Part shown: positions 1 through 10,900 of the stretch, in pieces
Numbering within the stretch: position 1 is the stretch's first letter
Layout of the letters: each line of letters opens with the position of its first letter
Source of the DNA: Burkholderiaceae bacterium
GTDB lineage: Bacteria > Pseudomonadota > Gammaproteobacteria > Burkholderiales > Burkholderiaceae
NCBI GenBank assembly: GCA_017997515.1
Contig: JAGOEY010000039.1
Location: 1-10,900 of the forward strand
Direction: 5' to 3'
DNA length: 10,900 bases
Made by a program: the position numbers and the translations under genes
The notes under the pieces: generated by a model
Seen by the model: the letters and a program-made list of their open reading frames with translations, nothing else
What the model was told of the DNA's origin: nothing
Databases searched by the model: none

Positions 1-731
1 ACACCGGCTTCGGCCATGGTGGGCACGTCGGGCAGCTGCGGGTTGCGTTTGGCGGCGGCCACGGCCAGCGGGCGGATCTTGCCGTTCTTGATGTGGCCCA
101 TCACCGAAGGCATGGTGTCGAAGCTCACCTGCACCTGGCCACCGATCAGGTCAATCAGCGCCGGGCTGCTGCCCCGGTAAGGGATGTGGGTGATGAAAGT
201 GCCGGTGGCGTCCTTGAACAGCTCGGCCGCGATGTGCTGGGTGCTGCCCGAGCCGCTGCTGGCGTAGTTGAGCTGGCCAGGTTTGCTCTTGGCCAGCTTC
301 ACCAGATCGGCCACGTTGGTTACCGGCAGGGCCATGTTGGCCACCAGCACGTTGGGCACGGCTCCGACGAAGGCCACCGGCACCAGGTCCTTGTTGTTGT
401 CATAACCCAGCTTGAGCAGGTGCGGCGCAATGGCATGGGCGGTGGACACGCCCATCACAAAGGTGTGGCCGTCGGTGGACTTGGCGGTCACGTCGGCGGC
501 CAGGGTGTTGGACGCGCCGGGGCGGTTTTCCACCACCACACTCTGCTTGAGCAGCGGGCCCAGGCGGTCGGCCACAGCGCGGGCCATGGCGTCGGTACCG
601 CCGCCGGGGGCCGAGCCCACCAGCAGCTTCACGGGCTGGCGCGGCCATTCCTGGGCGGAGGCGGTGGACACGGCGGTGCCCAGCGTGGCCGCCAGGCTGC
701 AGGCAACGGCAAGGTGCGTGAGGGATTTCAT
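1..731 (-). CDS. Bug/TctC-family periplasmic solute-binding protein (partial, C-terminus outside window)
   Basis: The 243 visible residues match the Bug (Bordetella uptake gene)/TctC family of extracytoplasmic receptors. These bind small carboxylates or similar ligands in the periplasm, often for tripartite tricarboxylate transporters. A Sec signal peptide occupies about residues 1-26 and ends AsaSAQ. It is followed by WPRQPVKLLVG and the conserved loop APGGGTD, then VVENRPGAS, YASSGSGS, HIPYRGSSPAL and LPDVPTMAEAG, all family landmarks in the expected order. The start is set by an AGGAG site (complement of 740-744) 8 nt upstream. Family members run to about 320 residues, so roughly the last quarter lies beyond the left edge. 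The gene diverges from a LysR regulator, the usual arrangement for Bug genes. The ligand cannot be predicted from sequence. The family call is secure. Confidence 0.93.
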   Translation of the reverse strand, partial: MKSLTHLAVACSLAATLGTAVSTASAQEWPRQPVKLLVGSAPGGGTDAMARAVADRLGPLLKQSVVVENRPGASNTLAADVTAKSTDGHTFVMGVSTAHAIAPHLLKLGYDNNKDLVPVAFVGAVPNVLVANMALPVTNVADLVKLAKSKPGQLNYASSGSGSTQHIAAELFKDATGTFITHIPYRGSSPALIDLIGGQVQVSFDTMPSVMGHIKNGKIRPLAVAAAKRNPQLPDVPTMAEAG

Positions 732-795
732 GGTTTTGTCTCCTGTTTATCGGAATAAGGTTGGGGTGCAACAGGGACAGATGCTAGGCTTGTGA

Positions 796-849
796 TTGAT
801 TTCTGAAAATTCAAAGTTCTTCATGTATTGATAACCTGAAGATATACAT
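796..849. promoter_or_regulatory. Candidate LysR operator region between divergent genes
   Basis: The 121-bp gap between the binding-protein gene and the LysR gene holds two imperfect dyads. One is TTGA-N11-TCAA at 796-814. The other is ATGTAT-N15-ATACAT at 823-849, overlapping TTCA-N13-TGAA at 820-840. LysR regulators typically bind AT-rich dyads in exactly such divergent gaps. Neither dyad is a strict T-N11-A box, so this is a candidate only. Confidence 0.35.
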
Positions 850-852
850 CCC

Positions 853-1803
853 ATGAGCACCACCCCCACCGCCCAACTGCTGAACCGCCTGCGTATGCGC
901 CAGGTGGCCCTGTTACTCGCCATTGGGCAGCACCGCACCCTGCGCGCCGCCGCTGCCCAGCTGGGCCTGACCCAGCCGGCGGCCACCAAGATGCTGCAGG
1001 AGCTGGAAAGCGCCATGGGCCACGCCCTGTTCGACCGGGTCGGCCGGGGCCTGCAGCTCACGGCGGCCGGGCACTGCGTGCTGGCGTATTTCGAGGGCTT
1101 ACAAGGCCATTTCGACGCCCTCACCCGCGAGCTGGGCGAGCTGGAACAGGGCAGCGCTGGCAAGCTGTGTATCGGCAGCATCATGGCGGCCTCCCCCGCG
1201 GTGCTGACACAGGCCCTGATCCGGCTCAAGGCGCTGTACCCGCTGCTCACCATCGAGATCACGGTGGACACCAGCGACCGCCTGAGCGACGCACTGCGCC
1301 GGGGCGACCTGGACCTGGTGATTGGCCGGGTGCCCGATACCAACGCCGGGGCCTTCAGCTTCTCACCCATCGCCGAAGAAGCACTGTCCATCGTCGCCTC
1401 GCCCCAGCACCCGCTGGCCGGGCAGGCCCGCGTGGCCTGGGCCGAACTGCTGGCCTACCCCTGGATCCTGCAGCCGCACGGCAGCCCCATGCGCGAGGTG
1501 ATGGAGCATGAGTTCAAAAACCAGCGCAGCCCGCTGCCCCGGGGCCTGATCGAGACCGCGTCCATCCTCACCACCACCAACCTGATCGGCAACTCCGACA
1601 TGCTGGCGGTGATGCCCACCGAGGTGGCCGAACGCTACGAGGCCCACGGCCTGCTGGCCTGCCTGCGTTACACCGTGCGCCAGCGGCTCAGTGTGTACGG
1701 CACCATCGCCGCCCGGGACCGGCCCGCCGGGCCAGCGGCAACCCAGCTGATGCAGTTCCTCCGTTCGGCCACTGCCGAGGCACCACAGAATCAAAAACAA
1801 TAG
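853..1803 (+). CDS. LysR-family transcriptional regulator
   Basis: A 316-aa protein of normal LysR length. The N-terminal winged helix-turn-helix spans about residues 13-72 and contains the typical run RAAAAQLGLTQPAATKMLQELE followed by LFDRVGRGLQLTAAG. A linker helix follows. The effector-binding domain (about 95-305) has IGSIMAASPAVL at its start and the LDLVIGRVPD motif. The effector domain recalls the GbpR-like subgroup, which is a weak assignment. It diverges from the Bug binding-protein gene, so control of that gene and possibly of itself is the likely job; the inducer is unknown. The ATG at 853 has only a weak upstream GAAG. The last codons (NQKQ) and the TAG stop lie in the AT-rich left end of an interspersed repeat, so the C-terminus may have been reset by that element. 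Confidence 0.93.
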   Translation: MSTTPTAQLLNRLRMRQVALLLAIGQHRTLRAAAAQLGLTQPAATKMLQELESAMGHALFDRVGRGLQLTAAGHCVLAYFEGLQGHFDALTRELGELEQGSAGKLCIGSIMAASPAVLTQALIRLKALYPLLTIEITVDTSDRLSDALRRGDLDLVIGRVPDTNAGAFSFSPIAEEALSIVASPQHPLAGQARVAWAELLAYPWILQPHGSPMREVMEHEFKNQRSPLPRGLIETASILTTTNLIGNSDMLAVMPTEVAERYEAHGLLACLRYTVRQRLSVYGTIAARDRPAGPAATQLMQFLRSATAEAPQNQKQ

Positions 1804-1851
1804 CGCTGTACGCACATGGGTATTGTGCTAAAGCCACTTTTGGCTTCAAAA
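1791..1851 (+). repeat. Interspersed palindromic repeat, copy A (about 55 bp)
   Basis: This copy shares its layout with copy B near 4442-4505: ATAGC (1800-1804), a CGC block, a first hairpin GCAC/GTGC (1812-1815 with 1825-1828), then AnAGnC, a T-run and CTT. A second hairpin AAGCCA-CTTT-TGGCTT spans 1831-1846. The short direct repeat TCAAAA flanks it at 1791-1796 and 1846-1851. It overlaps the end of the LysR gene. I recall this type of repeat from intergenic regions of Comamonadaceae genomes, without having checked. Confidence 0.6.
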
Positions 1852-1879
1852 CCCCACCCCCACAGGGGCGGGCAATAAT

Positions 1880-1905
1880 CCCTAGAATTCAAGGGTTTTC
1901 CCTAG
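1880..1905. promoter_or_regulatory. Direct CCCTAG repeats spaced by two helical turns upstream of the MFS gene
   Basis: The hexamer CCCTAG occurs at 1880-1885 and again at 1900-1905, exactly 20 bp apart, with AGGG (1892-1895) between them forming AGGG-TTTT-CCCT with the second copy. The block ends 33 bp before the MFS start codon. Same-face spacing suggests a protein binding site controlling the transporter. No regulator is identified and no clear -10/-35 pair is seen. Confidence 0.3.
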
Positions 1906-1938
1906 GATGCAGCACCCCTCCCCGCTGCGCAACACCCC

Positions 1939-3126
1939 ATGAACCTTCCCCTCTTCGCCCTGGCCGTGGCGGCCTTTGGTATCGGCACCACCGAATTTGT
2001 CATCCTGGGCCTGCTGCCCGAAGTCGCCAGCGACCTGGCCGTGTCCATCCCCGCAGCGGGCATGCTGGTGTCGGCCTACGCGCTCGGCGTGGCGGTGGGT
2101 GGACCGATCCTGGCCGTGGCCACGGCGCGGATGCCGCGCAAGACCACACTGGCATGGCTGATGGCGCTGTTTATCCTGGGCAACGTGGGCTGCGCACTGG
2201 CCCCCAACTACGCGTGGCTGATGGTGGCGCGGGTGGCCACGTCGTTCTGCCATGCGGCCTTCTTTGGTATTGGTGCGGTGGTGGCGGCCAGTGTGGTCGA
2301 GCCGCACAAACGGGCGCAGGCCATGGCGCTGATGTTCACCGGCCTGACACTCGCCAACGTGCTCGGGGTGCCACTGGGCACGCTGATGGGCCAGCACCTG
2401 GGCTGGCGCTCCACCTTCTGGGCCGTGGCCGTGATTGGTGTGCTGGCCATTGCCGCCGTGCTGCGCTGGGTGCCGAACCTGCGCCACACGCTGAGCGGCA
2501 GCGCGCTGGGTGAATTCCGCGTGCTGCGCAGCAAACAGGTGCTGCTGGCGCTGGGTGTGAGTGTGCTGGCCTCGACCAGCATGTTCACCGTGTTCACCTA
2601 CATCACACCCATCCTGCGCGACGTGACCGGCGTGTCGCCCCAGAACGTGAGTGGTGTGCTGCTGCTGTGCGGTGTGGGCCTGACCATCGGCAACCTGCTC
2701 GGTGGCCGCCTGGCCGACTGGAAACTCATGCCCTCACTCATGGGCATCTTCGCCGTGCTGGCCGTGGTGCTGGCCGCGTTTTCGTTCACCAGCGCCTGGC
2801 TCTGGCCCGCTGTTTTCACCGTGGTGGTGTGGGGCATGGTGGCTTTCTCCGCTGGCACGCCGCTGCAGGCGCGGGTGGTGACGCAGGCGGGTGACGCGCC
2901 CAGCCTGGCGTCCACCCTGAACATCGGGGCGTTTAACCTTGGCAACGCCATTGGTGCGTGGCTGGGGGGTGTGGTGATCAGCGCAGGCTGGTCGCTGCAG
3001 ACGATCCCGCTGGTGGCCGCAGGGGTGACGCTGGCGGCGCTGGCGTTGACGGTGTACACCGCATCGCTGGACCGGGCACCTGCGGCGGGGTCTTCCACGA
3101 AACTGGCGGGGTGTGAAGCGGGCTGA
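1939..3126 (+). CDS. MFS transporter, DHA1 family, YdhP-like
   Basis: A 395-aa integral membrane protein with about 12 hydrophobic segments, the normal size for the major facilitator superfamily. Similarity to E. coli YdhP is strong along the length: AFGIGTTEFVILGLLPEVA at the N-terminus, VSIPAAGMLVSAYALGV in helix 2, AAFFGIGAVVAASVV, FTGLTLANVLGVPLGTLMG, and near the C-terminus STLNIGAFNLGNAIGAWLGG. It is probably a proton-driven inner-membrane drug or metabolite exporter; the substrate is unknown. The ATG at 1939 has no convincing Shine-Dalgarno sequence, but the protein starts where YdhP starts. It follows the LysR gene in the same direction after 135 bp that hold a repeat and CCCTAG direct repeats. 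It converges with the VOC gene after 23 bp. Confidence 0.92.
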   Translation: MNLPLFALAVAAFGIGTTEFVILGLLPEVASDLAVSIPAAGMLVSAYALGVAVGGPILAVATARMPRKTTLAWLMALFILGNVGCALAPNYAWLMVARVATSFCHAAFFGIGAVVAASVVEPHKRAQAMALMFTGLTLANVLGVPLGTLMGQHLGWRSTFWAVAVIGVLAIAAVLRWVPNLRHTLSGSALGEFRVLRSKQVLLALGVSVLASTSMFTVFTYITPILRDVTGVSPQNVSGVLLLCGVGLTIGNLLGGRLADWKLMPSLMGIFAVLAVVLAAFSFTSAWLWPAVFTVVVWGMVAFSAGTPLQARVVTQAGDAPSLASTLNIGAFNLGNAIGAWLGGVVISAGWSLQTIPLVAAGVTLAALALTVYTASLDRAPAAGSSTKLAGCEAG

Positions 3127-3156
3127 AAAAGCGGAAGGACAGGCCAGCTTCAGCCC
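3120..3156. terminator. Inverted repeat holding both convergent stop codons; possible bidirectional terminator
   Basis: GGGCTGAA (3120-3127) pairs perfectly with TTCAGCCC (3149-3156) across a 21-nt loop. The TGA of the MFS gene (3124-3126) lies in the left arm and the TGA of the VOC gene (complement of 3150-3152) in the right arm. There is no U-tract and the loop is long, so termination is uncertain. Confidence 0.35.
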
Positions 3157-3629
3157 CGGTACGCCGCCTCAATGGCGGCAACGTCGATCTTCTGCATGGT
3201 CATCATGGCGTCGAACGCACGTTTGGCGGCCGCACGGTCGGGGTCGGCTATCGCCTCCAGCAGCACACGCGGCGTGATCTGCCATGACAAACCCCATTTG
3301 TCCTTGCACCAGCCACAATCACTTTCCTGGCCACCATTGCCGACCACCGCGTTCCACAAACGGTCGGTTTCCGCCTGGTCAACCGTTGCGATCTGGAACG
3401 AAAAAGCCTCACTGTGTTTGAAGTGGGGGCCGCCGTTCAGGCCGACGCAGGGAATACCCACCACCGTGAACTCCACCAACAGCACATCCCCTTCACTGTC
3501 ATCCGGGTAGTCGCCCGGCGCGCGGTGGATAGCTCCCATGGCACTGTCAGGGAAGGTCTGCGCATAGAAGTTTGCGGCTTCCACCGCATCCCGCTCGTAC
3601 CATAAACACAGTGTGTTCTTGTGGACCAT
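3150..3629 (-). CDS. VOC-superfamily protein, PhnB-like (3-demethylubiquinone-9 3-methyltransferase-like fold)
   Basis: A 159-aa cytoplasmic protein with the paired beta-alpha-beta-beta-beta modules of the vicinal oxygen chelate superfamily, PhnB-like subgroup. Typical stretches are LCLWYERDAVEAANFYAQTF at the N-terminus, the LNGGPHFKHSEAFSFQI segment, CGWCKDKWGLSWQITP, and a C-terminal helix with RAFDAMMTMQKIDVAAIEAAY. The family name 3-demethylubiquinone methyltransferase is historical; most members have no proven reaction. I chose the ATG at 3629 because AGGAG stands 7 nt upstream (complement strand) and it begins at the family N-terminus. An in-frame start at 3707 would add 26 unrelated residues. 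Likely monocistronic, facing the MFS gene. No function beyond the fold can be assigned. Confidence 0.88.
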   Translation of the reverse strand: MVHKNTLCLWYERDAVEAANFYAQTFPDSAMGAIHRAPGDYPDDSEGDVLLVEFTVVGIPCVGLNGGPHFKHSEAFSFQIATVDQAETDRLWNAVVGNGGQESDCGWCKDKWGLSWQITPRVLLEAIADPDRAAAKRAFDAMMTMQKIDVAAIEAAYRG

Positions 3630-3653
3630 GGTCTGTCTCCTGAAGCAATAGAA

Positions 3654-3668
3654 CGGGTTGGCAACCCG
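3654..3668. promoter_or_regulatory. Perfect dyad CGGGTT-GGC-AACCCG upstream of the VOC gene
   Basis: Six-base perfect arms with a 3-nt centre lie 25 nt upstream of the VOC start codon. It could be an operator or a hairpin in the leader. A second, shorter dyad AGACC-N11-GGTCT lies at 3701-3721. No regulator can be named. Confidence 0.3.
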
Positions 3669-3730
3669 CATGATCTGCCCGCGAACCACTGGCATCGTAC
3701 AGACCACAAAAAACCCGGTCTATAGGACGC

Positions 3731-3808: not shown

Positions 3809-4414
3809 ATGGACTTTTTCCTCCTGACACTGATCAGTGCCACCGGCTTTTACATGCTCAAGTCTGCCGAGCAGCGCAAACGTATCACCCTGCTGGGCAG
3901 CCATCTGAGCCAGTACCAGATCGAAAAACTGATGGAGACCTTGTCCGACGGCTACCTGCGCGCGCTGGGGGAGAAGGATGCCGCGCGGCGTGAGCAGGTG
4001 TGGGCGCTGCTGGCCAGCAGCGAGGCCCAGCTGTGCAGCCAGTTCAGCCGTTTTGTGGCCGAGTTTGCCAAGGTGGACGAGGTGTCCACACGGGTCAGCA
4101 AGATTCCGGTGGCGGTGCCGTTTGCCAACCAGCTGCTGTCCGCCGCCACCTTCGACCTGCGCAAGGTGTTTGCCGTACACGCCAAGGGCCTGGCCCAGGC
4201 CGCACAGAACACCGACGGGCGCTCGCCGCGCGACAAGGCCTTCACCATGTCGGCCGAGCTGTATCTGATGCAGCACACCTGCCACTGGTTCTGCAAGTCC
4301 AAAACCGTGGCCTCGGCCCGGCTGATGGCGCGGCACAAAACAACGTACGAACAGGTGCTGGCCTCGGTGGCCCCGGCCACGCGGGACGCCTACCGGGCGC
4401 TGGTGGGTGCGTAA
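3809..4414 (+). CDS. Membrane-anchored protein of unknown function
   Basis: I do not recognise this 201-aa protein. It begins with a hydrophobic helix (about residues 2-17) directly followed by KSAEQRKR, as in an N-terminal anchor with a cytoplasmic positive flank. The remainder is soluble and mostly helical, with SRFVAEFAKVDEVSTRVSKIPVAV in the middle and a cluster HTCHWFC (H156, C158, H159, C162) near the C-terminus. That cluster could bind a metal or form a disulfide, but this is speculation. Codon use matches the neighbours and the reading frame is strongly GC3-biased, so it is very likely a real gene. The start at 3809 lacks a clear Shine-Dalgarno sequence; it is preferred because it includes the membrane helix. 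A copy of the interspersed repeat follows its stop codon. Confidence 0.75.
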   Translation: MDFFLLTLISATGFYMLKSAEQRKRITLLGSHLSQYQIEKLMETLSDGYLRALGEKDAARREQVWALLASSEAQLCSQFSRFVAEFAKVDEVSTRVSKIPVAVPFANQLLSAATFDLRKVFAVHAKGLAQAAQNTDGRSPRDKAFTMSAELYLMQHTCHWFCKSKTVASARLMARHKTTYEQVLASVAPATRDAYRALVGA

Positions 4415-4537: not shown

Positions 4538-5059
4538 TCAGCGGGACCCAATGGCGCGTGCCACCGCGTCCTGAACGGTTCCCAGGGTGTTGCTGTTGCG
4601 CAGCATGCCCAAGCCGTTGGAGCTGGCATGTATGACAGTTTGCACACGGATCTGCTGGTCGTTCAGCGTGTTCTGGATCACCAGGCCCGCACCGAGGTCT
4701 GAGGCCCGGCCCTCGACGCTGTTGCCCGGACCGTTTTGCACGAGGTTCATACCCGCCATCCGCTGGCTGATCTGCAGGGCCTGCGCCGGGTTGAGCTGCG
4801 ACAAGCGGTCGAGTGTGAGGGTGGTCTGGGTCACCAGCGCGCCGTTGATGTAGACCGCCCGGCTGATTCCAAACCCCACTCGCAGGCCGTGCCCGGCATC
4901 AAAGCCACCCCGCAGGGTTTCCAGGTGCTGGTCGCTGACCGTGCGCCACACCAACGGCTCTGCGGCATACACCGGCACGTGGTGGCCGGCACCCCACACC
5001 AGCAGCCCACAACACAGCCCCCGGGCGAGTGCAGCGGTCGGTACAGGGTGGTGGAGCAT
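4538..5059 (-). CDS. Exported protein with double-glycine (LRGG) site, last gene of the C39 peptidase operon
   Basis: A 173-aa protein with a hydrophobic N-terminal segment (about residues 9-32) that looks like a Sec signal peptide ending near VYAAE. After a short stretch comes VSDQHLETLRGG (41-52), with V, L and L at -12, -7 and -4 before the GG, the spacing of double-glycine leaders cut by C39 peptidases. The part after GG begins FDAGHGLRVGFGISRAVYING and continues with Gln/Asn-rich segments such as LVQNGPGNS and LVIQNTLNDQQIRVQ. The start ATG overlaps the stop of the C39 peptidase gene (TGATG), with GGAG 7 nt upstream, so the two are translationally coupled. I think similar short LRGGF proteins sit beside C39 peptidases in other Proteobacteria, from memory. 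By position it corresponds to FapE in fap operons, but homology is unproven. Confidence 0.82.
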   Translation of the reverse strand: MLHHPVPTAALARGLCCGLLVWGAGHHVPVYAAEPLVWRTVSDQHLETLRGGFDAGHGLRVGFGISRAVYINGALVTQTTLTLDRLSQLNPAQALQISQRMAGMNLVQNGPGNSVEGRASDLGAGLVIQNTLNDQQIRVQTVIHASSNGLGMLRNSNTLGTVQDAVARAIGSR

Positions 5060-5739
5060 CAGAAATCTCCCGGCCCCAGCTTGGGCAGAGAAATATCGGT
5101 CAGGCTGTCGCGGCCCACACCACTCAGCAAAGGAGCGCGCGGCGCCACGCGCCAATCGGCACGCAGGTTGAAGCGTGCCTGGTCCATGCGGTTGTGCACC
5201 ACAAACAGCACACCGTTTTGCCAGTTTTTCGCGAAGACCTCACGGGCCAGTGCACGGGTGCCCTGTGCCGGGTCCCCCACCAGCACCCGGTCGGGCTGCA
5301 GACCTTTCACGACCACAAAATGCAGGTATCCGTTGTCGTTCAGCAGCACGATGGCCGGAACATTCACCTCACCCAGTTTGTCCAGGGGCTGCTCGAAGCC
5401 GTCGGCGTCAAAGCCATGGGCCGCAAGCACCCGTTTCATGTCGAGCAGCGAAAAACCATCTTGGCGGATACGCGCCTGGTCGCCTTGCGCATACATCTGC
5501 TCAAACACGGCCTGCTCGCTGATCGGGTAGGCGTAGTGGTGTGTGAGCAAGGTCGCCACCGCCGCAGACCCACAACTGAAGTCGTACTGCTGCAGCAGCG
5601 TGCCCGACCAACGCGCCTGCCGCAGGCTGGTCACCGGAACCTGCATGTCACCGGCCCCGGTGGACAGCAACTGGGCAGATTGCGCCCCGGCAGTCCCGCC
5701 CACAGCCGCCAGCGCAAGGAATAACAACAGGCCGCGCAT
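5059..5739 (-). CDS. Periplasmic C39-family cysteine peptidase, FapD-like
   Basis: A 226-aa protein with a Sec signal peptide (about 1-20, ending AGAQ) and a complete papain-like C39 domain. The oxyanion-hole Gln is Q50 and the nucleophile is C56 in QQYDFSCGSAAVATLL (Q-x5-C as in the family). The catalytic His is H140 in NDNGYLHFVVVKG, and the Asp is D156 in VGDPAQG. Unlike bacteriocin exporters it carries no ABC-transporter domains: it is a free-standing, exported peptidase like FapD of the Pseudomonas amyloid system. The likely substrates are the two neighbouring proteins with LRGG sites. It starts 5 nt after the stop of the 125-aa gene and its stop overlaps the start of the 173-aa gene, so it is in an operon. 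No clear Shine-Dalgarno sequence precedes ATG 5739, which suggests coupled translation. Family and triad are secure; the substrate is inferred. Confidence 0.93.
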   Translation of the reverse strand: MRGLLLFLALAAVGGTAGAQSAQLLSTGAGDMQVPVTSLRQARWSGTLLQQYDFSCGSAAVATLLTHHYAYPISEQAVFEQMYAQGDQARIRQDGFSLLDMKRVLAAHGFDADGFEQPLDKLGEVNVPAIVLLNDNGYLHFVVVKGLQPDRVLVGDPAQGTRALAREVFAKNWQNGVLFVVHNRMDQARFNLRADWRVAPRAPLLSGVGRDSLTDISLPKLGPGDF

Positions 5740-5744
5740 GGTGT

Positions 5745-6122
5745 TCAATCCATCTGCACATGCAGGAGAACCGCGTTCTGGATCAACACATTGGCACCGG
5801 AGTTCTGGATCACGACAGGAAGTCCACTCATGTTCGAAAACGCACCGCTGCTGATCGTGTTGCTGCCCGTCGCCACCTGATGGGCGCTGTTGCCTGTTGT
5901 GGCCCCTGTCAGCAGCATGTCGTTCTGTACGTAAGTGCCACCACGCAAACGCTCCAGAGCGGTGGTCGCCACAGGGGTGGAGAAACTCCCGCGCCCGGCC
6001 AGTGCACCGGCAACAGGGGCGTTGGTCGCATTGGTGGCTTCGCCTGGCGGGGCTTGCGCCATTGCCGCCAACGTACACAGCATGGCTGTGGCCCCCACTG
6101 CCAATGTCAGGTGGTTTTTCAT
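5745..6122 (-). CDS. Small exported protein with double-glycine (LRGG) site and IQN-type C-terminus
   Basis: A 125-aa protein with a clear Sec signal peptide (1-24, ending AMAQA). A Pro/Ala-rich segment follows, then VATTALERLRGG (51-62), whose V, L and L at -12, -7 and -4 fit double-glycine leader spacing. The part after GG is short and rich in Ser, Thr, Asn and Gly, and ends in SGLPVVIQNSGANVLIQNAVLLHVQ (99-123). That end resembles the C-terminus of the upstream 410-aa protein: both read NSG-x3-LIQ and then a V-rich strand ending in VQ. It could be a fibre subunit, a nucleator or a cap. The start is supported by AGGAG 5 nt upstream (complement of 6128-6132). The C39 gene follows after 5 nt. 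I cannot assign a named family. Confidence 0.82.
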   Translation of the reverse strand: MKNHLTLAVGATAMLCTLAAMAQAPPGEATNATNAPVAGALAGRGSFSTPVATTALERLRGGTYVQNDMLLTGATTGNSAHQVATGSNTISSGAFSNMSGLPVVIQNSGANVLIQNAVLLHVQMD

Positions 6123-6157
6123 GGTGTCTCCTCAGGTCGTCGCGGACACAGCGGAAT

Positions 6158-6244
6158 GGGCCGGCGGGGACAACCCGGGCAGACAGTGCGCTGGCTGCAC
6201 ACCGTCTACCCGATGGCCCACCCTACCGACCCTCAACCCGGCCC
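6158..6244 (-). other. Intercistronic region with long-range inverted repeat
   Basis: The 125-bp gap between the 410-aa and 125-aa genes holds a perfect pair GGGCCGG (6158-6164) / CCGGCCC (6238-6244) around 73 nt. In the transcript this could form a structure after the fibre-candidate stop codon and help set unequal expression. There is no T-run to indicate a terminator. Confidence 0.25.
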
Positions 6245-6247
6245 GTG

Positions 6248-7480
6248 TCAGTGGCCCACGTTCAGGTTGGCCTGCACATTCACACTTTGCTGGATCAGCG
6301 AAGAAATGCCGCTGTTCTGGCTGGCGATCATGATGCCGGCGGCGGACTGTCCTACGCTGGTCATGCTGTTCGACAGGTTGAACGTACCCGCAGAAACGGA
6401 ATTGCTTCCGCCCGCACCGCCGACGCCACCCTGGCCAGTACCACCTGCGCCACCTGCGGCCGTGTTGGTGCCACCGTTGCCAGCACCACCGGTGCCACCG
6501 GCGCCACTGCCGCCTGCACCACCATTACCCGCCGTGTTGCTGCCATTGCTGGCGCTGCCATTGGTGGCACTGCCGTTGTTGGCAGCGCCGCCGTTGCCAC
6601 CCGTGCCAGCGCCCGTGGTGCGGCCACCGGTATTGGAGCTGGTCGCCGTGCCACCGTCGCCACCGCTGCCGCCCGCTGCGCCGCTGCCGCCAGCACCTGC
6701 CACACCCGTGTTGCCGCTGGTGCCACCATCACCACCCAGGCCGCCGCCATTGGCACTGCCGCTGGAGCCGCTGCCCCCGCCACTGCCGCCGCGGCCACCA
6801 CGCGCACCGTTGTCGCCATTGGCTTGGGCATTGCCACCCGAGTTCGAGCCGGATGCACTGCCGCCTTTACCCCAGGCACCGTTGCCGGCCTCGGCACTTC
6901 CATTGTCCGCACTGCCGTTGGTGACCGAACCGTTGGAGGCTCTTCCGCCCGAGCCACCCATGGCGGCTTCGCCACCCGCGCCCGTGCCACCCGTGCCCCG
7001 CCCCGAGGCAACGCCACCCTTGCCTGTGCCGCCATCACCGCCATAACCCTTGCCACCATTGGCAGAACCGGCGTTGGAGGCATAGTTTCCGATGTTGGAC
7101 ACACTGTTACCGGTTACGGCCCCATCCAGCTTGCTTAAAGCCGTGGCGCTGGACACGTTGAAGGCATTGGTGAAGCTGCCCGAAGACCCGTTGTTGAGTG
7201 CCACGGAGCGCGCCCCTGTGGCGCGTGCAGCGCCGGTGTTTTTGTAGTTGGTGCTGCTGTCGGTCGATGTCCGTGCGTACGTGCTTGAGTCGGTGGAAGT
7301 TTTGGAATAACTGCTGGAGTCCGTCTTGCTGCTGGTTTCCGTGTTGGTGTTGTTGATCGTGCTGGTGTTGTCACCAGTACGCGTCCTTTGCGCTGCATCC
7401 TGGTCAACGCCTGCTGCCATCGCGACATGGCTTAACCCGAATACCGCTGCGATGGCCGTGGCCAAAAGTGTCGTTTTCAT
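6248..7480 (-). CDS. Exported Gly/Ser/Asn-rich low-complexity protein; candidate fibre or adhesin subunit
   Basis: A 410-aa protein. Residues 1-23 form a clear Sec signal peptide ending AMAAG. Residues 38-83 are Ser/Thr/Asn-rich with a tandem (Y)xxTSTDSST repeat. Residues 94-137 are an ordinary-looking segment. Residues 138-358 are glycine-rich, with an internal duplication NGSVTNGSADNGS (183-195) and NGSATNGSASNGS (302-314), 119 residues apart. Residues 359-410 end in SQNSGISSLIQQSVNVQANLNV, which resembles the end of the 125-aa neighbour. It has no Cys in the mature part. This composition suits a secreted fibre, matrix or amyloid-like protein; by position it corresponds to the FapB/FapC subunits, though I see no clear FapC repeat. 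The ATG at 7480 is preceded by GGAGG 4 nt upstream; the longer frame up to 7579 has no such support. It is first in its operon, behind a sigma-54 promoter. Confidence 0.85.
   Translation of the reverse strand: MKTTLLATAIAAVFGLSHVAMAAGVDQDAAQRTRTGDNTSTINNTNTETSSKTDSSSYSKTSTDSSTYARTSTDSSTNYKNTGAARATGARSVALNNGSSGSFTNAFNVSSATALSKLDGAVTGNSVSNIGNYASNAGSANGGKGYGGDGGTGKGGVASGRGTGGTGAGGEAAMGGSGGRASNGSVTNGSADNGSAEAGNGAWGKGGSASGSNSGGNAQANGDNGARGGRGGSGGGSGSSGSANGGGLGGDGGTSGNTGVAGAGGSGAAGGSGGDGGTATSSNTGGRTTGAGTGGNGGAANNGSATNGSASNGSNTAGNGGAGGSGAGGTGGAGNGGTNTAAGGAGGTGQGGVGGAGGSNSVSAGTFNLSNSMTSVGQSAAGIMIASQNSGISSLIQQSVNVQANLNVGH
6407..7069 (-). repeat. Imperfect glycine-codon repeat tract inside the 410-aa gene
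   Basis: The plus strand reads as a long run of imperfect gccacc/gccgcc units, coding on the minus strand for residues 138-358. Two better-conserved blocks at 6896-6934 and 6539-6577 encode the same 13-residue NGS pattern with substitutions. Such tracts can change length by slippage, so strain-to-strain variation is likely. Confidence 0.7.
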
Positions 7481-7521
7481 AAATCCTCCAAATGTTGAAC
7501 TTGAATGACTACCTTGAGGGT

Positions 7522-7536
7522 GGTGTGTGCCACACC
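7522..7536 (-). other. Perfect hairpin at the predicted 5' end of the minus operon transcript
   Basis: GGTGTG and CACACC pair around a 3-nt loop. The outer end is 3 nt from the transcription start predicted from the sigma-54 site (about 7539). Such 5' stem-loops can stabilise an mRNA; a regulator binding site is the alternative. Confidence 0.4.
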
Positions 7537-7549
7537 CATCGCAGTCCAT

Positions 7550-7565
7550 CGCATATCGCGTGCCA
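7550..7565 (-). promoter_or_regulatory. Sigma-54 (-24/-12) promoter for the minus operon
   Basis: The minus strand reads TGGCACG-CGAT-ATGCG. The -24 element TGGCACG matches the consensus in full, the GC of the -12 element is present, and exactly 10 nt separate the GG and GC. It predicts a start near 7539 and a 59-nt leader before the 410-aa gene. A sigma-54 activator gene lies in the same locus. Confidence 0.72.
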
Positions 7566-7688
7566 GGAATCCTGAACATCCAGAACGCTGTCGAGGGTAA
7601 AAAGACGCGGTTTTAGATACGGTACTGGCCGGTTTGGCAGCACGTGGACGGTTTTTGCACTCCCCTGTCGACGGGCTCACCGCACCTT

Positions 7689-7706
7689 TGTCGCAGATGT
7701 GTGACA
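7689..7706 (+). promoter_or_regulatory. Candidate activator-binding dyad, copy 1 (TGTCGCA-N4-TGTGACA)
   Basis: Two 7-bp arms that are inverted repeats but for one base pair, 4 bp apart. It lies about 125-140 bp upstream of the -24 element of the minus promoter and 44-61 bp upstream of the -24 element of the plus promoter, normal positions for an enhancer of sigma-54 transcription. Binding by the VpsR-like protein encoded downstream is inferred. Confidence 0.5.
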
Positions 7707-7748
7707 GCACTCTGCAAGACACCTCCACAGCTTGACGCGTATGGGGAA

Positions 7749-7764
7749 TGGCACTTCATTCGCA
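7749..7764 (+). promoter_or_regulatory. Sigma-54 (-24/-12) promoter for the plus operon
   Basis: TGGCACT-TCAT-TCGCA: the -24 element has TGGCAC, the -12 element has GC, and the spacing of GG to GC is exactly 10 nt. It predicts a start near 7775, leaving an unusually long leader of about 435 nt before the outer-membrane gene at 8210. The TC in place of TT before GC is a deviation. Confidence 0.6.
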
Positions 7765-7792
7765 CACCACACAGGCCCCGTGCCATAACCAG

Positions 7793-7810
7793 CGTCACAT
7801 ACATGCGACA
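7793..7810 (-). promoter_or_regulatory. Candidate activator-binding dyad, copy 2
   Basis: Read on the minus strand this is TGTCGCA-TGTA-TGTGACG, identical to copy 1 in the 13 bases TGTCGCA and TGTGAC with the same 4-bp spacer length, but in reversed orientation. The two copies are centred 104 bp apart with the plus sigma-54 promoter midway. Copy 2 would lie about 18-35 nt downstream of the predicted plus start. Confidence 0.48.
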
Positions 7811-7984
7811 CATCACGTGTGACACAGATCTCGTCGCTGCGCGACACACGGCCACGCGCCTGCATGGCATGTGCAGGACAACACCCCTCTCCTGGGTACA
7901 CCCCGTATCGCTTCGTCAAGGGCTGCAACAGGCCTGTGACAGATGCATCCCAGGCAGCGTTTACGTACCGTTGCAAGTTGCAAA

Positions 7985-8013
7985 TTGAAAAGCGCCATGG
8001 ATACACCTATACC
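7985..8013 (+). promoter_or_regulatory. Possible sigma-70 promoter for the plus operon
   Basis: TTGAAA (7985-7990) and TATACC (8008-8013) are separated by 17 bp, the optimal spacing, with 5/6 and 4/6 consensus matches. It would start near 8020, nearer the outer-membrane gene than the sigma-54 site, and could supply basal activator. Confidence 0.4.
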
Positions 8014-8123
8014 TGAAGAACGTTCAAGCTGTGTTATGGCTACGTCGCACCGCTAGATGCCTGTTCCGATGGCAAAAAAGAAATACAAGCGGCAACAGTT
8101 TTAAGCAGACGCGGTTCCGGAAA

Positions 8124-8135
8124 ACGCTGCAGCGT
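8124..8135. promoter_or_regulatory. Perfect 12-bp palindrome in the leader of the plus operon
   Basis: ACGCTGCAGCGT is self-complementary. It lies between the possible sigma-70 promoter and the outer-membrane gene. A second small dyad CCAG-ATT-CTGG follows at 8140-8150. Either could be an operator; no regulator is known. Confidence 0.3.
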
Positions 8136-8196
8136 CCAGCCAGATTCTGGTGCAGTGCCAAGAATGATGGAACCCCCAAAAAACACGGTCACACAC

Positions 8197-8202
8197 GAGG
8201 AG
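8197..8202 (+). promoter_or_regulatory. Ribosome binding site deciding the start of the outer-membrane gene
   Basis: GAGGAG ends 7 nt before ATG 8210 but only 4 nt before the in-frame GTG 8207. The ATG is therefore preferred. An out-of-frame ATG at 8205 is followed immediately by TGA. Confidence 0.6.
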
Positions 8203-8209
8203 CAATGTG

Positions 8210-9535
8210 ATGGCAAAGAACCCCCGCAACTGGCCCGTACTGTGGGGTGCTTGTTCGTTCGGCCTACTGCTATGCACGCATGGACAGGCACAACAAACCC
8301 CCTCCAGACAAGGGGCCCTCAAACGCCTGGAAACGTTACAGCAGCAAGTGACCGAACAAGGTTTCCAGATTGAGAGACTGCGCCAGCAGGTCGCGGAGCA
8401 AGAGATCCGCTACACACAGCAACAACAGCAACTACAAACCCTCGCACGCCAGGAAGACGCAGGCAACAGGCCCGTCGCCACCGCCCCTCCCGACGTCAAC
8501 CAAGCGGGCCTGGCCAATGCCCCGTCCGACGGCTCCACCCAGGCCATAAGGGTTGGTATTTCCCCCCAGGCCGAAGAAGCACTCCCGGCCGTGGCACAGC
8601 TGTTCGACCAGCCTGGCATCCTGACCCCTCCCGGGCGTTTTGTGCTGGAGCCCTCGGTACAGTACGGCTACTCGTCCAGCAACCGTGTGGCCCTGGTGGG
8701 TTACACCATCATCCCGGCGCTGCTCATTGGCCTGATCGACGTACGTGAGGTCAAGCGCAACATACTCACTACCGCACTCACCGGGCGCTGGGGCCTGAGT
8801 AAACGCCTGGAGATCGAGGCCAAGGTACCTTACGTGGTCCGGTCTGACTCCACCATCAGCCGCGAAATCTTCACGGGCTCCGCATCCGACAGTGTGTTCA
8901 ACAGCAACGGCAAGGCGCTGGGCGATGTGGAACTGGCAGCGCGTTACCAGTTGAACCAGCCCCAGGGCAACAGCCCCTTCATGGTCGGCTCCTTGCGCTT
9001 CAAGTCCCGCACCGGCAAAGACCCGTTTGAGGTGGTGACCGACTGCGTGACCCGCTGTGTGGGCAACACCACCGGCACCGGACTGCCGCTGGACCTGCCC
9101 ACCGGCTCCGGCTTTTACTCGCTGCAGAGCGGCTTGACCGCGTTGTTTCCTTCCGACCCCGCAGTGTTTTTTGGCAGCCTGAGCTACACCCACAACTTCA
9201 AGCGCAACAACGTGAGTCGCCTGGTGCGGGACGGGCAGCAGGAGTTCATTGGCACTGTCAAACCCGGCGATGTGCTGGGCCTGAATTTCGGCATGGGCCT
9301 GGCCCTCAACGAGCGCTCGACGTTCAGTGTGGGCATGGACCTGTACTCCATCGGACGCACCCAACAGAACGGGGCCGCAGTGGTGAGCTCCGTACGCACC
9401 CAACTCGCATCGCTGCTGCTGGGTTACTCCTACCGGTTGACCCCCAGCACCACCCTGAACGTGTCCGTTGCGGCGGGACTCACACCGGACACACCCAACT
9501 TGAACCTGACTGTCAGAGTTCCCGTTTCTTTTTAG
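8210..9535 (+). CDS. Outer-membrane beta-barrel protein with N-terminal coiled coil, FapF-like
   Basis: A 441-aa protein. A Sec signal peptide covers about residues 1-28. Residues 36-82 form a Gln-rich heptad coiled coil (LKRLETLQQQVTEQ, IERLRQQVAEQE, LQTLARQ). A Pro/Ala linker leads to GISPQAEEALPAVAQLFDQPG, which may form a plug. From about residue 142 (GRFVLEPSVQYGYSSSN) to the end, alternating strands such as LEIEAKVPYVVRSD, GDVELAARYQLN, GLNFGMGLAL and SLLLGYSYRLT indicate a barrel. The chain ends in RVPVSF, with the terminal Phe typical of BAM-inserted proteins. C279 and C283 lie in a probable loop. Signal, trimeric-type coiled coil and barrel in this order match FapF, the amyloid secretion pore, in design and length; direct homology is not proven. 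The activator gene follows after 11 bp. Confidence 0.85.
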   Translation: MAKNPRNWPVLWGACSFGLLLCTHGQAQQTPSRQGALKRLETLQQQVTEQGFQIERLRQQVAEQEIRYTQQQQQLQTLARQEDAGNRPVATAPPDVNQAGLANAPSDGSTQAIRVGISPQAEEALPAVAQLFDQPGILTPPGRFVLEPSVQYGYSSSNRVALVGYTIIPALLIGLIDVREVKRNILTTALTGRWGLSKRLEIEAKVPYVVRSDSTISREIFTGSASDSVFNSNGKALGDVELAARYQLNQPQGNSPFMVGSLRFKSRTGKDPFEVVTDCVTRCVGNTTGTGLPLDLPTGSGFYSLQSGLTALFPSDPAVFFGSLSYTHNFKRNNVSRLVRDGQQEFIGTVKPGDVLGLNFGMGLALNERSTFSVGMDLYSIGRTQQNGAAVVSSVRTQLASLLLGYSYRLTPSTTLNVSVAAGLTPDTPNLNLTVRVPVSF

Positions 9536-9546
9536 GCGGCCATTCC

Positions 9547-10900
9547 ATGCCGCGGCGAAACATCCTGTGTGTGTCTCTGGGCTGTGGTGCGCGCAACGTA
9601 GTGGAGTACCTGGTCAACAACGGATGGAATGTTGCAGAGGCGAGTACCCTGGCCGCCGCCGGTCGCCTCCAGGCCCTCCAGCACTTTGGAGTGAGCCTGC
9701 TTTTGATGGCCGGTGCGCCGCCCACACCGCCTGGGGCACTTAGAGCCTGCGTGCGCACGTCCCGCGGGTCAGAATGGGTGGCCCTGTGTGACAACCTGGC
9801 GCTGGAATCCACAGAATTTCGTGACTTGATTCTGGGGGACTTTTTTGGCCACCAGACTCTGCCGCTGGATGGGCCAGCCCTGGCGACGCTGCTGCTGCAT
9901 GCAGGCCAGCGTGCAGAGCTGCGACACCAGCACACCACCACCCAGACTTTGACGTCACAAGTGCAAGGTATGGTAGGAGAAAGCCCAGCCCTGCAGCATC
10001 TGCGACAGCAGATCCGCAAAGTGGCAGCCACCACCGCCCCGGTGCTGATTGGTGGAGAAAGTGGCAGTGGCAAGGAACTCGCAGCGCAGGCAATCCACCA
10101 CACATCGGCACGCTCAGAAGGGCCTTTTGTCGCGATCAACTGTGGCGCCATTGCGCCGTCGCTGATCCATGCCGAGCTGTTCGGCCATGAGCGGGGGGCC
10201 TTCACCGGGGCCTCCACCCAACATGGGGGCCTGATTGAAGCCGCCCATCGGGGCACGCTTTTTCTCGACGAAATTGCAGACCTCCCATTGGACCTGCAAA
10301 CCAACCTGTTGCGCTTTCTGCAGGAGAAGACGATCAACCGCCTGGGCTCTGTGCGCAGCCTGCATGTGGACGTGAGGGTGCTCGCCGCCTCACACACCGA
10401 TCTTGCAGCCGCTGTCGCACAGGGGCGGTTCCGCGAAGACCTGTTCTACCGCCTCAACGTGCTGCCAATCGAGGTGCCACCACTGCGCAGCCGCCTGGAG
10501 GACATCCCACAACTGGCCCACCATTTTCTGCAGCAGTGTGCAGGCAGCGTCAGCATGCGCATTGACGGGTTCCAGCGCCAAGCCATGACAGCCATGCTGG
10601 CCTACCACTGGCCAGGCAACGTACGCGAGCTCCACAACCGCGTACAGCGCGCGGCCGTCATGGCGGATCGGCACCTGGTCAGTGCCGCAGACCTGGGCCT
10701 GGAGGTTGCCCACAGTGTGTTTGGTGGTCTCCATGCAGCGCGCACCACCGCCGAACGGGACACCATCTGCCTCACGCTGAACCGGGTGAGTAGCAACGTC
10801 ACCCTCGCGGCCCGCGAACTGGGCATTTCACGCATGACCTTGTACCGGCTGATGGAGAAACACCGCATCGCCCCCCACGCAGGGCCGCACGGCCCACCAT
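9547..10900 (+). CDS. VpsR-like sigma-54-dependent transcriptional activator (partial, stop beyond window)
   Basis: The open frame gives 451 residues to the window edge. Residues 1-125 form a receiver-like domain resembling that of VpsR, but the strand VSLLLMAG has no phospho-acceptor Asp. The AAA+ core (about 142-375) has Walker A GESGSGK (170-176), an intact GAFTGA loop (217-222) for sigma-54 contact, Walker B GTLFLDE (236-242), FREDLFYRLNV with the arginine finger, and YHWPGNVREL. A Fis-type helix-turn-helix ends the protein (about 415-440, AARELGISRMTLYRLMEKH), close to the VpsR end TMYRLLNKH. VpsR responds to c-di-GMP and controls biofilm matrix; the same input here is inference. It is probably nearly complete, since VpsR is about 444 aa. 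AGGCGG stands 7 nt before ATG 9547. It shares an operon with the barrel gene, so it probably activates its own transcription. Confidence 0.9.
   Translation, partial: MPRRNILCVSLGCGARNVVEYLVNNGWNVAEASTLAAAGRLQALQHFGVSLLLMAGAPPTPPGALRACVRTSRGSEWVALCDNLALESTEFRDLILGDFFGHQTLPLDGPALATLLLHAGQRAELRHQHTTTQTLTSQVQGMVGESPALQHLRQQIRKVAATTAPVLIGGESGSGKELAAQAIHHTSARSEGPFVAINCGAIAPSLIHAELFGHERGAFTGASTQHGGLIEAAHRGTLFLDEIADLPLDLQTNLLRFLQEKTINRLGSVRSLHVDVRVLAASHTDLAAAVAQGRFREDLFYRLNVLPIEVPPLRSRLEDIPQLAHHFLQQCAGSVSMRIDGFQRQAMTAMLAYHWPGNVRELHNRVQRAAVMADRHLVSAADLGLEVAHSVFGGLHAARTTAERDTICLTLNRVSSNVTLAARELGISRMTLYRLMEKHRIAPHAGPHGPP

Follow-up and report, generated by a model that had tools for sequence, protein, structure and literature searches.

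The stretch analysed here, 10,900 nucleotides of contig JAGOEY010000039.1 from a Burkholderiaceae bacterium (hereafter "the window"), carries a six-gene cassette which probably encodes a FapF/C39 export system, a sister of the functional-amyloid system Fap that places a Gly-rich protein on the cell surface. Four genes are transcribed from the minus strand in the order G–S–C39–E: G (6248..7480), a Gly/Ser/Asn-rich exported protein of 410 residues and the candidate main subunit; S (5745..6122), a small exported "IQN" protein of 125 residues with the C-terminal block VVIQNSGANVLIQNAVLLHVQ; a FapD-like C39 peptidase with a signal peptide (5059..5739); and E (4538..5059), a FapE-like exported protein of 173 residues. 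On the plus strand, F (8207..9535), the predicted FapF-type outer-membrane pore with an N-terminal helix and a barrel, is followed by R (9547..10900), a sigma-54 activator with a VpsR-type N-terminal domain. All six reading frames are intact, R being cut by the window end and running past it; signal peptides were judged by eye and by a crude hydrophobicity rule. The first-pass annotation of the window had claimed that a C39 peptidase, a coiled-coil/barrel protein, three exported proteins, and a VpsR-like activator occur together, and all of them are indeed present at the locus.

We suppose that R, encoded beside the pore gene, would activate the G–S–C39–E operon from a sigma-54 promoter, and that the Sec system would take G, S, C39, and E across the inner membrane. 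The periplasmic C39 would cut E, and in this clade S too, after LxxxRGG, a pro-leader resembling the double-glycine type; once trimmed, E would license or escort transport via the FapF-type pore, by which G would exit with S and E along with it. The related Q/N-rich C-terminal blocks may guide export or join G, S, and E outside into a fibre or matrix. The cleavage itself, the order of export, and the polymerisation are steps that we infer; fibre formation is likely, and the fibre may be an amyloid.

The cassette is conserved as a unit. From a scan of a genome collection with an alignment of F, the best 80 of 317 loci were kept, giving 81 sequences with the window; judged by their record titles, these 80 belong to Comamonadaceae, Oxalobacteraceae, and their relatives, some metagenome-assembled genomes being labelled otherwise. 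At 54 of the 81 loci, F is flanked by more than 5 kb on its upstream side and 2 kb on its downstream side (the window is too short on one side), and in 51 of these 54 all five partners, E, C39, S, G, and R, lie within 7.5 kb of F, so the association of the genes is not due to chance. The three exceptions are a lone pore gene (L025; loci are numbered with L, genomes with G), a locus with E and C39 slightly further off (L067), and a stretch which ends before them (L042); taken singly, G is found in 53/54 and C39 in 51/54 loci. Like L025, L187 is an F-type pore gene with no C39 or exported partners in the fetched stretch.

The FapF model is matched at an E-value of 1e-15 or better in 65 of 245 genomes of one related family. 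The sister system is common there: under bit thresholds which we set ourselves, 60 pore genes in these genomes count as sister type (100–300 bits), 23 score as a weaker, third type, and 1 exceeds 300 bits as a genuine FapF. The S profile has matches at 56 sites, of which 55 have a sister-type F no more than 6 kb away; at 5 of the 60 such F there is no S match. The profile of the G C-terminus matches at 60 sites, and at 59 of these an S lies within 6 kb. The possibility, raised in the first-pass annotation, that homologues of the exported proteins are mostly found without the C39 and barrel genes was not borne out by this neighbourhood survey. The sole G match without S nearby (G245:C17:107569-107793) lies in a genome having the system and is a possible orphan substrate. 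In wider samples, the FapF model is matched in 32/185 genomes of the class at 1e-3 and in 23/299 of the phylum at 1e-12. The sister system is widespread and apparently undescribed. A 2018 review noted fapD–fapF pairs in five further phyla (PMC6173800), and recent GTDB surveys required the FapB/FapC repeat (PMC12392863, PMC12822426), so that the sister system would have been passed over.

The pore gene ties the cassette to Fap. F matches the NCBIfam FapF model with an E-value of 1e-48 and 166 bits, below the cut-off of 700 bits, against 50 bits on FilC. When a profile of 26 F proteins was compared with the PDB, the FapF crystal structures were recovered at 7e-42 and no other chain fell below 0.05. 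An AlphaFold2 model from 26 sequences (mean predicted local distance difference test score (pLDDT) 61, predicted template modelling score 0.51) contains a long helix at residues 35–84 and a barrel. The best 18 Foldseek matches of this model in the PDB are all FapF chains (top 5e-14), and the COG4313 channel (4rl8) comes next at 1e-9. A barrel unlike FapF, for which the earlier annotation had allowed, is not what was found; the barrel is predicted, at modest model confidence, to be FapF-like with an N-terminal helix as in FapF. The rank of 4rl8 could also suggest a COG4313-type uptake channel with an incidental C39 neighbour, which we regard as highly improbable given the 18 FapF chains ahead of it, the C39 gene in 51/54 loci, and the long N-terminal helix. 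Public databases label many named F homologues "acetate kinase" or "FimV family protein", names that seem to have spread by copying of an erroneous annotation.

The peptidase matches Pfam C39 at 6e-22 and NCBIfam FapD at 5e-40 (137 bits, under the equivalog cut-off of 330), and it scores lower on FilB (4e-33, 115 bits). Its catalytic motifs (Q-x5-C, H, and D, by pattern) are intact in 62/62 peptidases found, and from its sequence it is considered a FapD-type, periplasmic enzyme. Phylogenies were built from 49 F and from 47 C39 proteins. In both, nine genuine Fap members fall in one clade with support of 95 and 99 in the Shimodaira–Hasegawa-like approximate likelihood ratio test, and sequences of the window type group with their distant relatives in another (99 and 90). 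Of the 81 close loci, 25 (F) and 24 (C39) are represented in these trees together with the distant ones; the trees come from a short search with a midpoint root and several long branches. Both systems are present together in three genomes: G002, Polaromonas sp. AET17H-212 (fap at L119, sister at L001), G018 (L124 and L125), and G515 (L178 and L179), the last of which is outside the trees.

Among the exported proteins, E is found in 60/81 loci, many of which are truncated. In hhalign, its profile with distant relatives included scores 36.3 against FapE, where 100 column shuffles reach 18.4 at most; the aligned stretch starts at the leader motif and covers 32 columns. Because of this similarity and the gene position after C39, E is taken as the probable FapE counterpart. 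Its ATG at 5059, which overlaps the C39 stop codon, is likelier as a start than the TTG at 5155. A Pfam match of E to Flagellin_N (0.029, under the cut-off) was discarded.

S, found in 64/81 loci and with 780 homologues at an E-value of 0.01 or better, shares a C-terminal Q/N block with E (profile score 46.7, maximum 22.0 in shuffles) and with G (28.2, maximum 21.1 in 100 shuffles). The block of G, AGTFNLSNSMTSVGQSAAGIMIASQNSGISSLIQQSVNVQANLNVGH (6251..6397, minus strand), is part of its conserved ends, between which lies a Gly-rich middle of highly variable length. Against the FapB profile, S has a weak similarity (24.4, maximum 18.9) and G gives P 0.04; a likeness of S to FapC (19.1) was equalled in 1/100 shuffles and is not claimed. 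One locus (L183:988-6370) carries G–S–C39–E twice in tandem, the copies of S, C39, and E having identical E-values; this is either a recent duplication or an assembly artefact.

The imperfect repeat of which FapB and FapC each have three was sought with a hidden Markov model seeded from 14 such proteins, all 14 of which have three repeats. Among 11 further genuine fap loci, 9 have two three-repeat proteins, and L172 and L173 are listed with one two-repeat protein. FapE and FapF matches in L172 are above the cut-offs; L120 was confirmed as genuine fap by matches to the models of FapB, FapC (above cut-off), FapD, FapE, and FapF, its pore reaching 456 bits on FapF and so remaining under the 700-bit cut-off. 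In the sister loci, the repeat is found in 0/67 G and 0/60 E, and S has one weak match at an E-value below 0.01 in 7/64 (above 5 bits in 17/64, and in 0/64 reversed S). The NCBIfam searches with Fap profiles, proposed in the first-pass annotation, returned FapD and FapF below their cut-offs and no match of E, S, or G to any Fap model, FapB, FapC, and FapE included. Nor did FapA match among the 7 open reading frames of the window which were scanned, the presence of a FapA model in the library being unconfirmed; loss of fapA by deletion is frequent among Fap operons (PMC3792158).

We regard the window system as a sister of Fap and not a fap operon, because a three-repeat FapB/FapC-type protein is missing, F and C39 fall in clades apart from Fap, and three genomes have both systems. 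The same evidence makes it unlikely that the cassette is a diverged fap operon which makes Fap amyloid and whose FapC and FapB have become unrecognisable as G and S, a reading that could draw on the collinear gene order in 13 loci, the resemblance of E to FapE, the weak single repeat match of S, and its similarity to the FapB profile. The suggestion of an undescribed variant or sister of Fap is thus supported, the exported proteins being accompanied by C39 and the pore, and the pore being like FapF. The description of the main exported protein as Gly/Ser/Asn-rich and not an evident FapC also stands, and G may be a Gly-rich surface protein of a very different kind.

The sister system shares with Fap the FapF-type pore, the FapD-type C39, the FapE-like partner, a nearby enhancer-binding activator, and, in some relatives, the collinear order. 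It differs from Fap in the Gly-rich G with conserved ends, which replaces the three-repeat FapB/FapC, in its own F and C39 clades with scores below the NCBIfam cut-offs, and in the last residue of the leader (RGG in E, RG[K/R] in FapE), which in the window's clade occurs on S as well.

The leader-like motif L-x-x-x-R-G-G is present in 60/60 E and 64/64 S of the clade (124/124); in the window it is LETLRGG at residues 46–52 of E (4904..4924, minus strand) and LERLRGG at residues 56–62 of S (5937..5957, minus strand), and C39 is proposed to cleave after the GG. The pattern places it in register in 59/60 E and 63/64 S, the remaining two (L033 and L042) having been placed by eye. A first pattern, which demanded L, M, or I ahead of the basic residue, recovered too few (42/60 E and 10/64 S) and was widened to L...RGG. 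As a control, L...RGG occurs in 26 of 3094 other open reading frames of 100–300 residues at these loci, a set that includes spurious frames.

C39 substrates carry a double-glycine leader with the consensus LSxxELxxIxGG. The E motif and the positions preceding it resemble this leader, with V at −12 in 46/60, S at −11 in 39, and L or M at −4 in 41; S conforms less well at −11 and −4. In more distant loci, E keeps RGG in 9/9, and the motif of S is altered or lost in several (L129, L131, L133, L135, L142, L183, and L184). For this reason E is the general candidate substrate of C39, and S a second candidate in the window's clade. A similar motif, ending in RG[A/G/R], stands before the barrel in 16/81 F proteins.

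The sister system can be seen as an intermediate: E, its FapE-like protein, has an explicit LxxxRGG leader, which the alignment reveals in FapE too, there with K or R as the last residue. In 19 of 20 genuine fap loci, FapE has a hydrophobic residue at −12, L or M at −7, R at −3, G at −2, K or R at −1, and Y or F at +1; these include all five loci with FapF above the NCBIfam cut-off (presumably Pseudomonas), and the single exception is L182, with HGK. The count takes one FapE per locus, leaving out a second FapE-like open reading frame in L178, and the pattern was written after viewing the leaders of L171–L175, which the alignment had revealed.

The catalytic Cys of FapD is required for FapC secretion, and the N-terminus of FapE is missing from mass-spectrometry data (PMC5557850, PMC6173800). 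According to Rouse et al., Fap proteins are without canonical C39 sequences, yet FapE has GG/GA motifs; FapE alone shows complete N-terminal processing, with about 70 residues unseen, FapD is essential, and FapE was proposed as the likely FapD substrate (PMC5557850). The new element here is the alignment of the E leader with FapE, which nominates RG[K/R] as the candidate FapD cleavage site, and the main value of the comparison lies in this concrete, testable statement. The titles and abstract openings listed by our searches of the open-licence literature do not describe the leader in FapE, which is weak evidence of absence.

Several points weigh against the proposed export system. The likeness of E to FapE is limited to the 32 columns, a second collinear C-terminal segment not being significant alone, and the residue at −1 of FapE is K or R, not G. 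The roughly 70 unseen residues of FapE exceed the leader marked here, and the GG/GA motifs named by the authors in FapE and FapF are different ones. Since the S motif changes or disappears in several distant relatives, only E is left as a general substrate candidate. G has no similarity to the FapC profile (10.9, equalled in 30/100 shuffles), and its model from 24 sequences has no usable fold and no structural sign of a fibre; with a mean pLDDT of 40, this model was dropped as evidence. Our searches of the open-licence literature listed no experiment on any member and no title or abstract opening that describes the cassette, again weak evidence of absence.

Other systems combine a C39 peptidase with a FapF-like pore. 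The putative pilus system Fil (FilA–FilB–FilC in NCBIfam) has both, together with an exported protein carrying a leader-like motif (of the LDDSALADVTGQ type). The window system is unlike Fil in that its C39 has 115 bits on FilB (cut-off 475) and its pore 50 bits on FilC (cut-off 630), and the FilA model has no match in the window. Outside Fap and the window's clade, leader-like motifs were sought with permissive patterns and no background control: the exported neighbour at two Fil-type loci matches FilA and carries a comparable motif ending in GQ, the motifs of two other C39–pore loci (L136 and L138) end in AG plus one residue, and L137 and L188 have none by these patterns. A third lineage of C39 with a FapF-like pore is seen in L189:5400-7748, which matches FilA, FilB, and FilC, L190, whose exported neighbour matches FilA, and L132, with a motif ending in GG.

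We find it about evenly balanced whether one rule covers every FapF/C39 system, Fap and Fil included. Each would have a Sec-exported partner bearing a further, double-glycine-type pro-leader in the periplasm (hydrophobic at −12, L or M at −7, hydrophobic at −4, G or A at −2), which C39 removes to open transport; the FapD substrate would be FapE, cut after RG[K/R], and the window system would be a third major lineage, using the leader for a Gly-rich, non-FapC fibre.

The nap island of Neisseria (NapP, NapF, and the Nap peptides) also joins a C39 peptidase, a FapF homologue, and GG-motif products (PMC11798529). Compared by description only, it is unlike the window in its small cationic peptides promoting autolysis, and that description contains no Gly-rich protein (PMC11798529). 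By analogy with what is proposed for nap, the cassette could export small processed peptides for signalling, toxicity, or autolysis, with G as a matrix or carrier and no fibre, and S, with its GG motif and short remainder (63 residues in the window), would suit such a role. We consider this distinctly improbable, since NapA–C are described as cationic and the median net charge after the motif is −1 for S and 0 for E (+3 for the window's E), S and E are alike, S resembles the end of G, and G is present in 53/54 loci.

R matches Pfam Sigma54_activat at 1e-68 and the VpsR domain at 25.3 bits (cut-off 23.7); of 74 R proteins, the window's included, 50 carry GAFTGA and the other 24 a close variant of it. 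R is thus assigned by sequence to the sigma-54 activators (bacterial enhancer-binding proteins), with an AAA+ domain carrying a GAFTGA-type loop. The exact site TGGCACN5TTGCW stands before G in 28/67 loci (0.04 expected from first-order resampling, as for the following counts), a site matching at 10/11 or better in 57/67 (0.58 expected), and one at 9/11 or better in 66/67 (3.8 expected); the sites lie mostly 64–90 nucleotides upstream of the G start, which was chosen by rule. The window's own candidate −24/−12 promoter of the G–S–C39–E unit, TGGCACGCGATATGC (7551..7565, minus strand), is a 9/11 match, weaker than most, and alone is not above chance, as 40 of 200 window shuffles hold one. Among 59 divergent loci, none has a site at 10/11 before F and 7 have one at 9/11 (5.6 expected), counts so near expectation that F is not claimed to be sigma-54 dependent.

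Among all 7-mers upstream of G, TGTCACA/TGTGACA ranks first (52/67 regions, 3.9 expected); it was chosen for that rank and not predicted beforehand. The G–F intergenic region of the window has three TGTGACA copies (7700-7706, 7818-7824, and 7935-7941, no strand assigned); counted over the entire window, the element does not exceed chance. The three copies are candidate activator sites, at which R may act. The first-pass annotation had stressed that the locus has its own sigma-54 activator. R is present, but this is not peculiar to the system: an R-like activator occurs in 16/20 genuine fap stretches fetched. In P. fluorescens, the enhancer-binding protein BrfA drives fapA and senses cyclic di-GMP (PMC13101488); the likeness would consist in an operon driven by an enhancer-binding protein.

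A second claim, that the pore and the activator form a divergent unit, holds for the window, which lacks the single operon order of fap, and for 58 of the 71 loci with both G and F. In the other 13 the genes are collinear (G–S–C39–E–F), all in Janthinobacterium, Massilia, Duganella, or Rugamonas records, with R in front in 10/13 and, in some, the S gene hidden inside a longer open reading frame. Among more distant relatives, L125, L133, L135, L139, and L142 are collinear, with no R in the fetched stretch, and F is convergent in L129, L131, and L134. With 13/71 loci collinear and further arrangements among the relatives, F has no fixed place in the cassette, and divergence is a lineage-specific variant of the layout, not a defining feature. 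Separation of fapF from the rest is also known among Fap operons (PMC3792158).

Related cassettes are found on large plasmids or chromids, such as the plasmid of Croceicoccus marinus (L142), pDA100 of Photobacterium (L140), and the megaplasmid of C. metallidurans CH34 (L139), and thus also in an alphaproteobacterium (L142); on these grounds, the system may be mobile at times. Next to the cassette in the window, 3809-4414 (plus strand) encodes a hypothetical protein of 201 residues without a Pfam or NCBIfam match. The genes of 1-3707, named by eye from translations, look ordinary: a TctC-type receptor, a LysR regulator, an MFS transporter, and a VOC-like protein.

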